Below are positions 3,666-17,455 of a DNA stretch of 64,000 nt, piece after piece. Every line of letters begins with the position of its first letter. Within the stretch, counting starts at the first letter, position 1. The notes under the pieces were generated by a model. That model did no database searches. It was not told the origin of the DNA and was given only the letters and a program-made list of their open reading frames with translations. Location: assembly GCF_003177035.1 (NCBI RefSeq), contig NZ_CP029488.1:3540501-3604500 (forward strand), read 5' to 3'. Source of the DNA: Salinisphaera sp. LB1. GTDB taxonomy: Bacteria; Pseudomonadota; Gammaproteobacteria; Nevskiales; Salinisphaeraceae. Both the position numbers and the translations under genes were made by a program.

Positions 3666-3699
3666 ACGGTAGGCGCAAATTATGACACTCATGTGACAC
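3666..3699 (-). promoter_or_regulatory. Pho box and -10 of the pstS1 operon
   Basis: Read on the minus strand: GTGTCAC-ATGA-GTGTCAT (3699-3682), then 10 bp, then TACCGT (3671-3666) in -10 position. Two direct 7-bp repeats with a 4-bp spacer, replacing the -35 box, are the known PhoB-binding architecture. It lies about 70 bp before the pstS1 start. Confidence 0.85.
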
Positions 3700-3801: not shown

Positions 3802-3827
3802 AAAAAAAAGCCCGGGCAAGCCGGGCT
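3802..3827 (-). terminator. Intrinsic terminator of the Pho-driven mini-gene
   Basis: On the minus strand a GC stem (3826-3821 with 3815-3810, loop CTTGC, plus an extra A-T pair) is followed by eight T residues (3809-3802). The TAG stop codon of the 25-codon ORF overlaps the stem. No long ORF lies between this and the preceding terminator at 4088-4112, so it ends a separate short transcript of about 175 nt. Confidence 0.88.
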
Positions 3828-3903
3828 AAAGAATGGGAGCCATCTGTGGATGTGGGTTGCATCGCGCCAGGCAATGCGGCCGGCAGGGACAAGAACCGGC
3901 CAT
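3826..3903 (-). CDS. Candidate Pho-regulated 25-residue cysteine-rich microprotein
   Basis: Unrecognised and too short for routine gene calling. The ATG at 3903 has AAGG 6 bases upstream (AAGGTGGGTC). The 25-residue product has cysteines at 5, 7, 11 and 15 (pattern C-x-C-x3-C-x3-C), histidines at 10 and 18, and four prolines, suggesting a metal-binding or disulfide-linked peptide. The stop codon falls in the terminator stem. Its own Pho box and -10 element lie upstream (4016-3983). The putative leader (about 70 nt) starts with a perfect 8-bp hairpin. The unit sits between the porin-lipoprotein pair and pstS1 in a Pho island. It could instead be a Pho-induced small RNA with a chance ORF. The transcription unit is better supported than the peptide. 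No function can be assigned. Confidence 0.45.
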   Translation of the reverse strand: MAGSCPCRPHCLARCNPHPQMAPIL

Positions 3904-3982
3904 GACCCACCTTGCGGGATCGGCCCGAGCGCTGGGCTCGACAGCCGCGGCCCCGGTCGCGGGGAGAACGCGACCGAGAAAA

Positions 3983-4016
3983 ATTATGCGTACGCGATAT
4001 GACGCGTTCGTGACAG
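3983..4016 (-). promoter_or_regulatory. Pho box and -10 of the mini-gene
   Basis: On the minus strand: CTGTCAC-GAAC-GCGTCAT (4016-3999), then exactly 10 bp, then CATAAT (3988-3983). This is the same geometry as the pstS1 and phoB promoters and one of the best -10 elements of the set. It lies after the terminator of the lipoprotein gene and about 80 bp before the microprotein start, so it can only serve the short unit or read into pstS1. Confidence 0.8.
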
Positions 4017-4087
4017 CGCGGCCGAGCACCCGAAAATCCAAGCCATCGCGGGCCTTCGCACACCCCGCGCCTCGATCCGCCGGCCGC

Positions 4088-4112
4088 AAAAAACCCCGGA
4101 CGGGCCGGGGTT
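4088..4112 (-). terminator. Terminator after the porin-lipoprotein operon
   Basis: Stem AACCCCGG / CCGGGGTT (4105-4112 with 4092-4099, loop of 5). On the minus strand it is followed by a T run at 4093-4088. It lies 57 bp downstream of the lipoprotein stop codon and closes that operon. Confidence 0.88.
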
Positions 4113-4169: not shown

Positions 4170-4640
4170 TTATTCCTGCTGCTGCTTCTGATGCTGCTCC
4201 CAGCGCTTGTATTCCTTCCACTGCTGGAAGGTCTGGAAACGCTGTTTTTCCGGCGAATTCGCAGGGAGCTTCTTGAAATGCTCGTATTCCTGGAATTGCT
4301 TGAAATCGGAGAAGCTGCCATTGGCGCCGGCACTGGAGCCGGAGGCGCTCGGCGAACTGCCCGATGTGGTCGACGCCGACTGACCCTGGTCGCTGTTCGA
4401 GCGATGGCTGCGTACCGATCCGAACACCGACTTTTGCGGGTTCTTGTCCGAATACAGCAGCGTACCACCGCCGTCCGAGGCATCGTAATGCCCGCCGCTG
4501 AGCAGACCCGGCCCCTTGGCCGAGTCATTTTCACCGGGCAGGTTGTCGTAGTCGACCTGCTTGCCATGGGGAAAGCCGGATGCACATCCGGCCAACCCCA
4601 ACAGCATCACCAGGCCCGTAATGGCGTGGGTAGATTGCAT
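4170..4640 (-). CDS. Small putative outer-membrane lipoprotein
   Basis: 156 aa, family not recognised. The N-terminus is a lipoprotein signal with lipobox LAGC (MLLGLAGC, modified Cys at about residue 19). A Ser/Gly-rich low-complexity middle (about 85-110) follows, then a charged C-terminal segment rich in Gln, Lys and aromatic residues (FKQFQEYEHFKKL, QQWKEYKRWEQHQKQQQE), probably helical. The start is 7 bp after the porin stop codon and a terminator follows, so it is co-transcribed with the porin from a Pho-box promoter. Inference: a lipoprotein partner of a phosphate-starvation porin, perhaps peptidoglycan-facing. No function can be claimed. Confidence 0.8.
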   Translation of the reverse strand: MQSTHAITGLVMLLGLAGCASGFPHGKQVDYDNLPGENDSAKGPGLLSGGHYDASDGGGTLLYSDKNPQKSVFGSVRSHRSNSDQGQSASTTSGSSPSASGSSAGANGSFSDFKQFQEYEHFKKLPANSPEKQRFQTFQQWKEYKRWEQHQKQQQE

Positions 4641-4647
4641 TGATTTC

Positions 4648-5835
4648 CTAGAAGAACTTCACACGGACGCCGGCGAACACGACGTTCATATTCTTGGCAC
4701 CGAACGACCCCACAGAGGTGCCAACTTGGTCACCCGAGCCGTTCGTTACGGGGGTATAAGAAGCCAGATTATCGCCAGTCAGGTGATGGTACGAAGCATA
4801 CATGTTAACCGACTTGAGCAGATCATAGCGATAGGCCACGCCGTAGTTGCGCACCTGGCTGTTGCTGCTCTGCAGATCGTCGGTCTGGCCGAAGAAGGCC
4901 TGGATATGGTTCTTGCCGCGGATATAGCCGATACCGCCCGAGTAGGACTGGGCATGATCCTGGCTAATGAATTTACCCGAATCGTAATAAGTATCGTGAT
5001 AATTGCGGCGCTTGTACTGGGCAAAGAAGTTCAGGCCCGAGGGCAACAGCACTGAGGCGGAGCCGCCGAATTCATGGAAATACTGATTCTGCTTAACCAC
5101 GCCCGCCTGGTTGATATCTTTTTTCTGGTTGCCACTATCGACATAATCTACCGCGGCCGCGACCTTCACGCCGTTGGCAAACTTGTGTTCGTAGCGCGGT
5201 GCGACTTCGATGGCCTGGCCCTGATCATAGCTGATCGAGAGGGTCGCGCCATTGAAGCTCGGCGAGTCGTAGCGCACCGTGTTCTGACGTGACAGGGCGT
5301 CAAAGTTGCTGTAGCCGCTGCTCAGGCCGACCGTGCCGCCATTGCCATTGACGAAGCTCAAGCCACCGAAATAGTCATCCACAACCGAGCCACCACCGAG
5401 ATCGGTCAGACCCGACAGGTCGACCTTGGAGGTGCTGTTGGCGGCACCGTCCGTCTTGCCGAACCGCAGCTTGCCGTAATTGCCTTGGAAGAAGGCATAG
5501 GCCTGCCGGTTATCGGTCGAGGTGCCGGTCGCACCTTTGTTGATGTCATATGTGCCGGACTTGTTCACGAACACAGCGATCTCGTAATCGAAACCGACCT
5601 TGAGATTCGGGTTGACGTCCTGGCTGCCCTTGAACGCGAAACGCGTCGGCGAGGAGCCATTGTCCACCAGACCGGCGTCCGTGGACTTGCCGTTATCGGC
5701 GGCGATGACGGCCCGGTTGACCTGGCCGGAGATCTTGAAATCCAGCGCATGCGCGGCCGGCGCAGCGCCGAACACGGTGGCCATGGAAACGAGGCCGGTT
5801 GCCAAACCAGCGTATTGGGCCTTGATCGACATAAA
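4648..5835 (-). CDS. Pho-box-controlled general porin
   Basis: Outer-membrane beta-barrel porin of the Gram-negative trimeric type, 395 aa. It has a signal peptide ending AAPAAHA, then LDFKISGQVNRAVI. Internal family features include QAYAFFQGNYGKLRFGKTDGA and YRYDLLKSVNMYASYHHLTGD. The final strand AGVRVKFF ends in Phe, the signal for barrel assembly. The start was chosen at the ATG at 5835, which carries the signal peptide and has GAGGGAGA upstream; the frame is open further up without family sequence. A Pho-box promoter 155-190 bp upstream and the neighbouring phoBR suggest it admits phosphate or other anions during starvation (a PhoE/OprP-like role). That role is inferred, since substrate cannot be read from the sequence. 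Confidence 0.9.
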   Translation of the reverse strand, partial: FMSIKAQYAGLATGLVSMATVFGAAPAAHALDFKISGQVNRAVIAADNGKSTDAGLVDNGSSPTRFAFKGSQDVNPNLKVGFDYEIAVFVNKSGTYDINKGATGTSTDNRQAYAFFQGNYGKLRFGKTDGAANSTSKVDLSGLTDLGGGSVVDDYFGGLSFVNGNGGTVGLSSGYSNFDALSRQNTVRYDSPSFNGATLSISYDQGQAIEVAPRYEHKFANGVKVAAAVDYVDSGNQKKDINQAGVVKQNQYFHEFGGSASVLLPSGLNFFAQYKRRNYHDTYYDSGKFISQDHAQSYSGGIGYIRGKNHIQAFFGQTDDLQSSNSQVRNYGVAYRYDLLKSVNMYASYHHLTGDNLASYTPVTNGSGDQVGTSVGSFGAKNMNVVFAGVRVKFF

Positions 5836-5990
5836 GTTTCTCCCTCGAAGCAGATTGATCCGGGCGTCTTTGCCCCTACTGGCACAGTCGGTTCCCGACT
5901 GCATCGCTACCCCGGGCGGGCGCGTGCCCCTGCACGACACTTGGTTGCGCATGTGCAATCGCAACTCGACCCGATCCGGACGATGGCCCA

Positions 5991-6024
5991 ATTAAACACC
6001 CCGGTTATGACCGTTTTATTGCAA
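5991..6024 (-). promoter_or_regulatory. Pho box and -10 of the porin gene; rest of the 5836-6173 gap is leader
   Basis: On the minus strand: TTGCAAT-AAAA-CGGTCAT (6024-6007), then 10 bp, then TTTAAT (5996-5991). The first repeat is weaker than in the other boxes (4 of 7 to CTGTCAT); the second repeat and -10 are good. The rest of the 338-bp gap between the porin start and the phoR stop is a leader of about 150 nt, in which I see nothing else. Confidence 0.65.
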
Positions 6025-6173: not shown

Positions 6174-7499
6174 CTACGCCGCGTCAGCACCGACCAGTCG
6201 TTGATACGGGAACAGACAACGAAACGTGGTGCCCTGCCCGAGCTCGCTGTCAATCTGCAGCTCGGCCTCGTGATGTTCGAGGCTGTGCTTGACGATGGCC
6301 AGCCCGAGGCCGGTCCCGCCATCCGAAGAGCTGCGCCCGGAATCGATCCGGTAGAAGCGTTCAGTGAGTCGCGGCAGATGTTCCGGCGCGATGCCGGGCC
6401 CGTTGTCGCTCACGGCCAGCTGCGCTGCGCGCCCATTGCGCCATTGCACCGTGACCCGCCCGCCGGCGGGTGTGTAGCGCAAAGCGTTGGCCACCAGGTT
6501 GGAGATGACGCTCTCGATCTCGGACGGACGACCGAACAGCGACAGGCCGGCCTGGACATCCGTATCGATCTGGTGTCGACCTTCATCGGACTTGCGGAAG
6601 TCGGCCACGATACGGTCGATCATGGCCGGCATATCGACCGTCTCCTGGGCCTGCGCCAGCCCCTCGCTTTCCAGTCGCGCCAGGCGCAGGAGACTGTCGA
6701 TGATGCGCCCCATGCGCGCGGACTGGGCATCCATTTCGCGAATCGGCGTACGCCAGGCCGCAAGCGCCCCCGCTTCGGCCGCATCCTCGGTCATCATTTC
6801 CAGATAACCGCGCAGCACGGTCAGCGGCGTGCGCAACTCATGCGAGGCATTGGCGACGAAGTCGCGCCGGGTCGATTCCAGCCGTTTCTGCTCGCTGACA
6901 TCGCGCGCGATGAGCAGGCGCTGGCCGTTACCATAGGGCACGATGCGCAGCGAGAGGGTGTCGGTATCGTTGGCCGGCGACGGCACTTCCAGCGGCTCGC
7001 CGACATGGTCGGCGCGCGCCAGGAATTCGGCGAAACGCGGGTGGCGCATCAGGTTGACGATACGCTGGCCGTTATCCTGGCCAGCGCGCAAGGCCAGCAA
7101 CGCCGCGGCCGCATTGTTGAACCACACGATACGTCCGCGCCCGTCGATAACCACGGCACCATCGGGCAGCGCGGCGGTCGAGGCCTGGAACTCGCCGACG
7201 ATGCTCTTGAGCCGTTTCTTGCGCCGACGGTTGCGCTGTTTGAGGCGATACAACTCGGTGTAGATTTCCTGCCACACGCCCGCCCCCTCGCGGGGCTCGA
7301 CCCGTGGCTGCGCCAACCAGCGGTGCAACTGATAGGCGAACATCAGGTGCCCCGCGGTATAGAACGCCAACGCGATGAGCAGGGCCAGGGTGACCCGGTC
7401 GAAGGCCAGCCCGACCAACGCCGCGACCGTCAGCCAGGCCGCGAGCCGCAGGCCGGCCATGAACCAGATACGGCGTACTTCATTGGCCGCGGGGTCCAT
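6174..7499 (-). CDS. phoR: Phosphate regulon sensor histidine kinase PhoR
   Basis: Inner-membrane kinase that phosphorylates PhoB when phosphate is scarce, 441 aa. Two close hydrophobic segments lie within about residues 10-60 with no large periplasmic loop, as in PhoR. A basic stretch (RRRKKR) follows, then a PAS domain (about 105-200). The phospho-acceptor box VANASHELRTPL has His220, and the ATPase domain has NALRYT, DNGPGIAPEHL and GGTGLGLAIVKH. It starts 9 bp after phoB, so the two are one operon. Signal is expected from the Pst complex via PhoU, which is not in the window. Confidence 0.95.
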   Translation of the reverse strand: MDPAANEVRRIWFMAGLRLAAWLTVAALVGLAFDRVTLALLIALAFYTAGHLMFAYQLHRWLAQPRVEPREGAGVWQEIYTELYRLKQRNRRRKKRLKSIVGEFQASTAALPDGAVVIDGRGRIVWFNNAAAALLALRAGQDNGQRIVNLMRHPRFAEFLARADHVGEPLEVPSPANDTDTLSLRIVPYGNGQRLLIARDVSEQKRLESTRRDFVANASHELRTPLTVLRGYLEMMTEDAAEAGALAAWRTPIREMDAQSARMGRIIDSLLRLARLESEGLAQAQETVDMPAMIDRIVADFRKSDEGRHQIDTDVQAGLSLFGRPSEIESVISNLVANALRYTPAGGRVTVQWRNGRAAQLAVSDNGPGIAPEHLPRLTERFYRIDSGRSSSDGGTGLGLAIVKHSLEHHEAELQIDSELGQGTTFRCLFPYQRLVGADAA

Positions 7500-7508
7500 G
7501 CCGACCGG

Positions 7509-8204
7509 CTACAACGAACGACTCGAAAAACGGTAGCCGCTGCCGCGCACGGTCTGGATGAAGCCATCGAACCCGTGCGGCGCCAGCGCCTTGCGCAACC
7601 GGCGAATATGCACATCGACCGTACGTTCCTCGACATAAACATTCTGCCCCCAGACGCGATCGAGCATCTGTTCCCGGGTATACACCCGCTCGGGGTTGCT
7701 CATGAAGAAACGCAGCAGGCGATACTCGGTGGGGCCCAGCCGCACCGAGGCGTCGCCCACCGATACGCGCTGGCTGGCGGCGTCAAGGGTCAGACCGTCC
7801 AGTTCGAGCGTCTCGTCCTCGCCGCCCGGCAGGCTGCGACGCAACACGGCACGCACCCGGGCCACCAGCTCGGACGAAGAAAACGGCTTGGTCACGTAAT
7901 CGTCGGCGCCGAGATTAAGCCCGCGCACGCGGTCGTTTTCATCCACGCGCGCGGTCACGAGGATGATCGGCAGGTTCTGGGTGAGCTCGTCGCGCCGCCA
8001 CTCACGTGCGAGCTCCATGCCGGATACCCCCGGCAGCATCCAGTCGAGCAACACCAGATCGGGCCGCCGCTCGGCCACGGCCAGCCTCGCGGCCTGGGCA
8101 TCCGGCGCTTCGGCGACCGAAAAATCCGAGCGCTCGAGCGCGAAGCGGATCATATCGCGAATCGGGGCTTCGTCTTCGACAACGAGTATGTGCTTGCGTG
8201 ACAT
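7509..8204 (-). CDS. phoB: Phosphate regulon response regulator PhoB
   Basis: Transcription activator of the Pho regulon, 231 aa, the normal length. The receiver domain has the acidic pair in LVVEDEAP, phospho-acceptor Asp54 (LVLLDWMLPG) and TKPFSSSEL. The C-terminal OmpR-type winged helix (about 130-228) contains LGPTEYRLLRFFMSNPERVYTREQMLDRVWG and RTVDVHIRRLRKAL. A strong Pho box lies just upstream, so the operon is autoregulated. The five Pho-box promoters described here are its likely local targets. Confidence 0.96.
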   Translation of the reverse strand: MSRKHILVVEDEAPIRDMIRFALERSDFSVAEAPDAQAARLAVAERRPDLVLLDWMLPGVSGMELAREWRRDELTQNLPIILVTARVDENDRVRGLNLGADDYVTKPFSSSELVARVRAVLRRSLPGGEDETLELDGLTLDAASQRVSVGDASVRLGPTEYRLLRFFMSNPERVYTREQMLDRVWGQNVYVEERTVDVHIRRLRKALAPHGFDGFIQTVRGSGYRFSSRSL

Positions 8205-17421: not shown

Positions 17422-17455
17422 ACTTTGCATGGACTATGTGACGGAAACATGACAA
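17422..17455 (-). promoter_or_regulatory. Pho box of the pstS2 operon
   Basis: On the minus strand: TTGTCAT-GTTT-CCGTCAC (17455-17438), then 10 bp, then CAAAGT (17427-17422) where a -10 should be. The repeats are good; the -10 is poor, suggesting strong dependence on PhoB or a start slightly further on. It lies about 65-95 bp before the pstS2 start. Confidence 0.75.

Follow-up and report, generated by a model that had tools for sequence, protein, structure and literature searches.

A candidate PhoB-activated small RNA with C-rich loops beside pstS in Salinisphaera sp. LB1

What does a short, free-standing unit with a Pho box of its own make when it lies beside pstS, and on what might its product act? 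This question is raised by the minus strand of a 64,000-nt stretch of Salinisphaera sp. LB1 (the window, to which coordinates refer unless a genome is named; contig NZ_CP029488.1, positions 3,540,501 to 3,604,500), whose genome (G000) comprises 4.14 Mb in a single contig. The gene order on that strand is phoB (7509-8204), phoR (6174-7499), a porin gene (4648-5832; Pfam Porin_4), a lipoprotein-like gene (4170-4640; without Pfam or NCBIfam match), the unit, pstS and two transporter permease genes, which are pstC and pstA to judge by position. The unit itself (about 3976-3802, minus strand) is flanked by the lipoprotein-like gene and pstS and lies outside annotated genes. A terminator-like hairpin seen by eye 3' of the lipoprotein gene (4088-4111, minus strand), with a similar hairpin and T run in the related genome G006, suggests that the unit would be isolated; this hairpin is absent from the output of the consensus terminator scan.

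A Pho-type promoter between a porin cassette and pstS

The Pho box of the unit, TGTCACGAACGCGTCAT (TGTCAC-GAACG-CGTCAT; 3999-4015, minus strand), was found by pattern match and is conserved in G006. It is followed by a -10 that can be read in the sequence as CATAAT (3988-3983, minus strand), 16 nt from the start of the second Pho repeat; in G006 this -10 is GATAAT at unchanged spacing. The pstS gene has its own Pho box by pattern match (3682-3698, minus strand), downstream of the terminator of the unit. The first-pass annotation, made from the letters of this DNA, had proposed a good -10 and a geometry shared with pstS and phoB, and this holds: the repeats are 11 nt apart and the second repeat stands 16 nt from the -10 at all three promoters, in G000 and G006 alike. 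With a Pho box in place of the -35, a fixed distance to the -10, and PhoB and PhoR encoded in the genome, the unit has the features of a Pho-regulon promoter. A plain sigma-70 scan reported no minus-strand promoter at the unit, as expected since the Pho box replaces the -35, and the consensus scan gave one promoter-like site on the opposite strand (4010-4037).

The pattern behind these assignments, TGTCAYNNNNNYGTCAY, is rare enough to be informative. It matches four times in the window, against 0.06 expected, and none of 100 shuffles reaches four; genome-wide there are seven matches in G000 and six in G006, against none for the reversed pattern in either. Relaxed to two mismatches the pattern becomes uninformative (20 seen, 23.6 expected). 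The seven boxes of G000 precede phoB, pstS, the unit, a gene that we take from its sequence to be polyphosphate kinase and a second pstS-like gene, while two look incidental. The box before the polyphosphate-kinase-like gene is conserved (L223 at G000:C1:864465, and L230 in G006). That of the second pstS-like gene lies upstream of it at 17438-17454 of the window, so the genome may carry two PhoB-controlled phosphate-binding proteins.

In several genomes of the family (L102-L111) the genes for the porin and the small lipoprotein come together as a two-gene cassette, of which G000 itself has a second copy (G000:C1:2442139). At the G014 locus (L110), a Pho-box-like sequence read by eye, TTGTAAC-TAAAA-TGTCAT, stands directly after the lipoprotein gene and upstream of the gene for an exported-looking protein; the cassette thus adjoins Pho-like control there as well. 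A sequence search for solved structures of the porin returned none (E 0.01).

Probably an RNA rather than a peptide

The putative small RNA (3802-3976, minus strand; about 175 nt), with its start placed from the -10 and its extent backed by a conserved fold and a covariance model, opens with a 5' hairpin of eight pairs (3954-3976; stem 3976-3969/3961-3954), two of which are changed on both sides in G006. It closes with an intrinsic terminator recovered by the consensus scan on the minus strand (seven-pair stem, 3827-3809, followed by eight T ending at 3802), whose outer pair is changed on both sides in G006. Own promoter, own intrinsic terminator and a position outside annotated genes are the make-up of a gene for a trans-acting sRNA. 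Several C-rich (UCCC) motifs are exposed in the predicted fold. Loop 1, the predicted seed for the porin Shine-Dalgarno sequence (SD), occupies 3962-3968 (minus strand; unpaired probability 0.99-1.0) and reads UUCUCCC in G000 and CUCUCCC in G006; both it and the UUGUCCCU part of motif 2, UUGUCCCUGCCG (3881-3892, minus strand; invariant between the two genomes), have an unpaired probability of about 1 in both genomes. Motif 3, CAGAUGGCUCCCAUU (3832-3846, minus strand), is an invariant 15-mer whose GAUGGCUCCCAUU is partly paired. In single-sequence folding the G000 transcript folds better than all of 200 shuffles (z -3.2), and the G006 copy gives z -3.3.

The first-pass annotation had left the choice between a phosphate-starvation microprotein, an sRNA, or both. 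The features on which it built are all found on the minus strand: the 5' hairpin, and a 25-codon ORF (3826-3903 with its stop) with an ATG (3903-3901) spaced from an AAGG, cysteines at positions 5, 7, 11 and 15, and a TAG (3828-3826) inside the eight-T intrinsic terminator. On its own such an ORF is unremarkable, since a closed ORF that begins with ATG and has 25 codons or more turns up in 158 of 2000 dinucleotide shuffles; one with at least four cysteines occurs in 3 of 2000, in a test devised after the ORF was seen. G006, the only relative with the unit, lacks an ATG at the ORF start and its indels break the frame. A frame there with the common C-P-C-R string begins at TTG with no evident SD and runs open through the terminator, and the cysteines common to both genomes are accounted for by the invariant RNA motif UUGUCCCUGCCG. 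A conserved Cys-rich microprotein was therefore rejected. That the unit nevertheless encodes the 25-residue peptide in LB1, or is a dual-function RNA that also makes it, would agree with the AAGG-spaced ATG, the four cysteines and the recurrence of C-P-C-R; given the loss of start and frame in G006, and changes within the ORF region that keep RNA pairs, we regard it as very improbable. With the ORF lost in G006, the unit is read here as a PhoB-activated non-coding sRNA: judging from the two sequences, it is the RNA rather than a peptide that G000 and G006 preserve. Of the first-pass alternatives, the Pho-driven, terminator-bounded sRNA is supported by its counterpart in G006, and the microprotein is not supported.

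In G006 the unit is at the unchanged position, flanked by the lipoprotein gene and pstS, and retains the Pho box, the -10, the three C-rich motifs and the terminator. Identity between the two genomes is 91% for pstS, 74% for the porin and 63% for the lipoprotein, and the DNA from the terminator to the pstS promoter hardly aligns. Within the unit the two genomes are identical over TTGTCCCTGCCG, CAGATGGCTCCCATT, the hairpin 1 sequence TCTCCCCGCG, and the greater part of both Pho box and terminator. The longest word common to both transcript bodies is 15 nt, a length reached by none of 2000 mononucleotide shuffles (12 nt is reached by four of 2000). RNAalifold on the G000-G006 pair predicts 45 pairs, 13 of them changed on both sides, against a mean of 3.3 in column shuffles that preserve gap pattern and conservation class (0 of 1000 get 13). 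The consensus energy is -59.8, against a mean of -26.1 (sd 3.9) in these shuffles (z -8.6; 0 of 1000 as low), and with the terminator removed z is -6.9. When a fixed 15-pair structure was set against shuffling of the 3' partners, 60 of 500 shuffles reached it, a non-significant result from a comparison that has little power with two sequences. What is found is conserved RNA structure in the place of a conserved ORF, on two sequences and with the pair-shuffle control not passed.

The distribution of the unit is narrow. A DNA search of 41 genomes returned a match in seven, with the full unit in G000 and G006 alone; in G005, G019, G024, G026 and G030 the matches are only 27-29 nt long and nearly all to the terminator. 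A covariance model built from the G000 and G006 copies and scanned over 85 genomes of the order scored 203.8 bits on the former and 191.5 bits on the latter, the very sequences it was built on; no other score exceeds 21.5 bits. Of the 85 genomes, 36 have some match with E no higher than 1, and two have the unit. The best other match of the model (L152) and a further one (L160) were examined as homologues and rejected, both lying at the start of an apparent coding sequence. The porin-lipoprotein paralogue loci that lack the unit (L104-L111) have no match to the model with an E of 1 or less, and no match to the unit was found on plasmids. The core of motif 3 is found with one mismatch in all 14 genomes of the genus, at about the control level, and its exact copies are in G000, in G006 and at one coding-looking site in G002 (L132). 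The first-pass proposal to look upstream of pstS in relatives gave a mixed outcome: one of seven such regions, that of G006, has the unit, while in G001, G013, G010, G002, G014 and G004, all of the genus or family, it is absent, with no model match above 5.1 bits (the pstS match of G009, at a contig end, was left out, and 7 of 17 family genomes have no pstS match). A unit present in only two of 85 genomes of the order might be a non-functional remnant, kept through recent common descent and not by selection. We consider this highly unlikely, as much of the flanking intergenic DNA can no longer be aligned, yet the loops are identical or nearly so and the stems covary.

Three of these relatives offer a hint as to origin. 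Upstream of pstS, G013, G010 and G002 (L114, L115 and L116) have a second, distal Pho promoter of unchanged geometry, and no terminator was seen to separate the two promoters (in G002 the proximal box, identified by eye, is degenerate). Either a distal pstS promoter may have acquired a terminator and become the sRNA, or the sRNA may have been lost from the other genomes. Tandem promoters also suggest another product, namely a leader or attenuator of pstS, transcribed from the distal of two Pho promoters and read through at its terminator in some condition; a precedent is the pstS of Sinorhizobium meliloti, for which two PhoB motifs and two start sites are reported (PMC3616915, in the accessible part of the article). 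This is improbable for LB1, where pstS has its own Pho promoter beyond the terminator of the unit and no conserved alternative pairing that would open this terminator was seen by eye. A possible shorter analogue of the sRNA was noticed at L116 (about G002:C31:121790-121860): in the DNA that separates a porin-like gene from the distal Pho box, a short CUCCC-loop hairpin precedes a strong terminator.

The porin mRNA as predicted target

For the proposed PhoB-activated sRNA, the adjacent porin gene is the best-placed candidate target. Its SD, GGGAGAA (5838-5844, minus strand), is complementary to all 7 nt of loop 1, and the complementarity is exact in both genomes (UUCUCCC/GGGAGAA in G000, CUCUCCC/GGGAGAG in G006), the single base that differs between the two loops being matched by a changed base in the porin SD. 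When loops were ranked by hybridisation to start regions, using crude gene calls, the porin came first of 53 in the G000 window and first of 38 in a 40-kb stretch of G006 (39 called, one dropped as too near the end), both for loop 1 and for loops 1 and 2 together; the combined G000 score is -22.8, with the runner-up close at -22.3. Loop 2 alone places the porin fourth of 53 and seventh of 38, and loop 3 gives it no preference (26th of 53 and 20th of 38). A possible second contact was read in the porin leader, where AGGGGCAA (5870-5877, minus strand) could form eight pairs, one of them G-U, with motif 2. It lies upstream of the SD in G000, an order that fits simultaneous antiparallel pairing of the two loops, and the arrangement is weaker in G006. 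Full-length duplex energies are uninformative, since they ignore structure.

The covarying base needs to be weighed against the frequency of such SDs. Genome-wide, GGGAGAAN{3,8}ATG has 27 sites in G000 (reversed control 4) and GGGAGAGN{3,8}ATG has 22 in G006 (control 5), not all of them before real genes, and by blastp just one pair among them is orthologous, that of the porin. Five of the 27 G000 sites have a G006 orthologue with GGGAGAN, the last base being A in three, T in one and G in the porin (65 loci covered 66 sites; two blastp matches at 24-30% identity were excluded); the covarying base by itself is therefore weak evidence, roughly a one-in-five event. Besides, GGGAG precedes the porin start in six of the seven readable porin loci that lack the unit (L104, L105 and L107-L110, the exception being L111, the paralogue in LB1 itself; the start at L106 was unread and left out), and L104, L105 and L108 carry the exact heptamer GGGAGAG. 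The porin SD therefore predates the RNA or is independent of it, and any co-evolution would consist of the loop following the SD.

These frequencies lend some weight to a PhoB-controlled sRNA of the same build that would act mainly on other mRNAs whose start regions are G-rich, the match to the porin being incidental given that many SDs resemble GGGAG. The C-rich loops would fit many such SDs, among them those of the 27 G000 sites and of the porin relatives without the unit, and motif 3, the longest invariant block, is left without an assigned target. We hold this to be possible, though doubtful: for loop 1 the porin ranks first in both genomes, at the same locus, and no further orthologous pair is an exact fit to both loops. 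Sites complementary to motif 2 or 3 number 104 in the two genomes (51 and 53, counting the copies in the unit itself); 40 of them had loci, 38 gave entries, and among these 38 no site that lies where a whole ORF starts was seen to be shared. Motif 2 has a one-mismatch site, CGGCATGGACAA, that is found in each genome (L206, L207); it lies within an ORF, some 320-375 nt from the ORF start, with an in-frame ATG next to it. Scanning start regions for exact words returned 7-mers at three other genes of the window and, in G006, an 8-mer for motif 3 (120627-122066); none of these is shared between the genomes.

We therefore return to the porin and put the probability at a little over one half (about 0.55) that the unit is a PhoB-activated non-coding sRNA of about 175 nt with UCCC loops, the first of which blocks the SD of the adjacent porin. 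Under phosphate limitation PhoB would bind the Pho box of the unit and transcription would start, to be ended by the intrinsic terminator; the RNA would fold into stem-loops exposing the C-rich motifs, all 7 nt of loop 1 would pair with the SD of the porin mRNA, and 30S binding would be blocked, while loop 2 may contribute a second contact upstream in the leader. The porin itself has a possible Pho promoter (5991-6023, minus strand), a degenerate box TGCAAT-AAAAC-GGTCAT with a TTTAAT -10, conserved in G006 and in Pho geometry. It matches 7 of 10 core positions in both genomes and is missed by the two-mismatch Pho scan; as other offsets in the same leaders likewise score 6 or 7 of 10, the argument for it is conservation and geometry, not score. 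This weak Pho-like promoter suggests that the circuit is likely an incoherent feed-forward loop, with PhoB acting on the porin transcript and a PhoB-driven RNA limiting its translation: PhoB would activate the porin weakly and the sRNA strongly, and the sRNA would cap porin synthesis in starvation. PhoB dependence, transcription, porin repression and feed-forward logic are all features that we infer from the DNA. The fullest version, a porin-dedicated PhoB sRNA with loop and SD co-evolving, a feed-forward loop and two-loop antiparallel binding, perhaps derived from a distal pstS promoter that gained a terminator, is put forward tentatively and is more likely wrong than right.

Comparison with known systems

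Rfam has no match in the window, and both copies of the unit give only matches below the gathering threshold, none named sX13. MicF, MicC and VrrA are porin-repressing sRNAs driven by other signals, and from partial accounts they act, as proposed for the unit, on outer-membrane protein mRNAs through pairing; to our knowledge, none of them has a Pho box. A literature search for PhoB- or phosphate-controlled sRNAs by name found no paper among the articles covered, and a Pho-driven C-rich-loop sRNA beside pstS was not among the matches listed, in a search over titles and abstract beginnings with most subscription journals outside its coverage.

The accessible parts of related articles provide a background of phosphate and sRNA connections. 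In S. meliloti, 45 sRNAs were altered in a nitrogen and phosphate stress experiment, in an article that further mentions, by citation, an E. coli sRNA that is induced by PhoB and acts on rpoS (PMC8829014). sRNA candidates with predicted PhoB sites have been listed, together with four phosphate-starvation-induced candidates for which a conserved PhoB site was not evident (PMC2573895). Further reports concern LasR-controlled sRNAs that act on phoB (PMC12506140), a predicted phoB site (PMC6186989) and MavR, which promotes PhoB expression (PMC8565329). Similar in its proposed control is EsrL of E. coli, an sRNA reported to be phosphate-induced and to have PhoB bound upstream (cited in PMC10294691); in K-12, PhoB binding upstream of esrL was not detected (PMC10294691, accessible part). 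Well-supported PhoB-activated sRNAs thus appear to be few, with EsrL, one E. coli case, questioned. If the reading of the unit is true, the Pho regulon would gain a testable post-transcriptional arm with a concrete one-loop target prediction.

In its proposed mode of action, pairing of C-rich loops with start regions, the unit resembles sX13 of Xanthomonas and LhrC of Listeria. Like the unit, sX13 has three C-rich motifs and stable stems, and its targets are G-rich sites near start codons, as predicted for the unit; unlike the unit, sX13 sits at the polA locus, and no Pho control is stated in the accessible part of its description (PMC3771888). LhrC carries its three UCCC motifs in two loops and a single-stranded stretch and binds a G-rich sequence 5' of the start codon; its expression requires a two-component system, as proposed for the unit, this system being LisRK in the one case and PhoRB in the other (PMC4132741, accessible part). 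It differs in having five copies and a Gram-positive host, the sequence comparison being through Rfam scans alone. If our reading is true, regulation by C-rich loops, as in sX13 and LhrC, would extend to another lineage.
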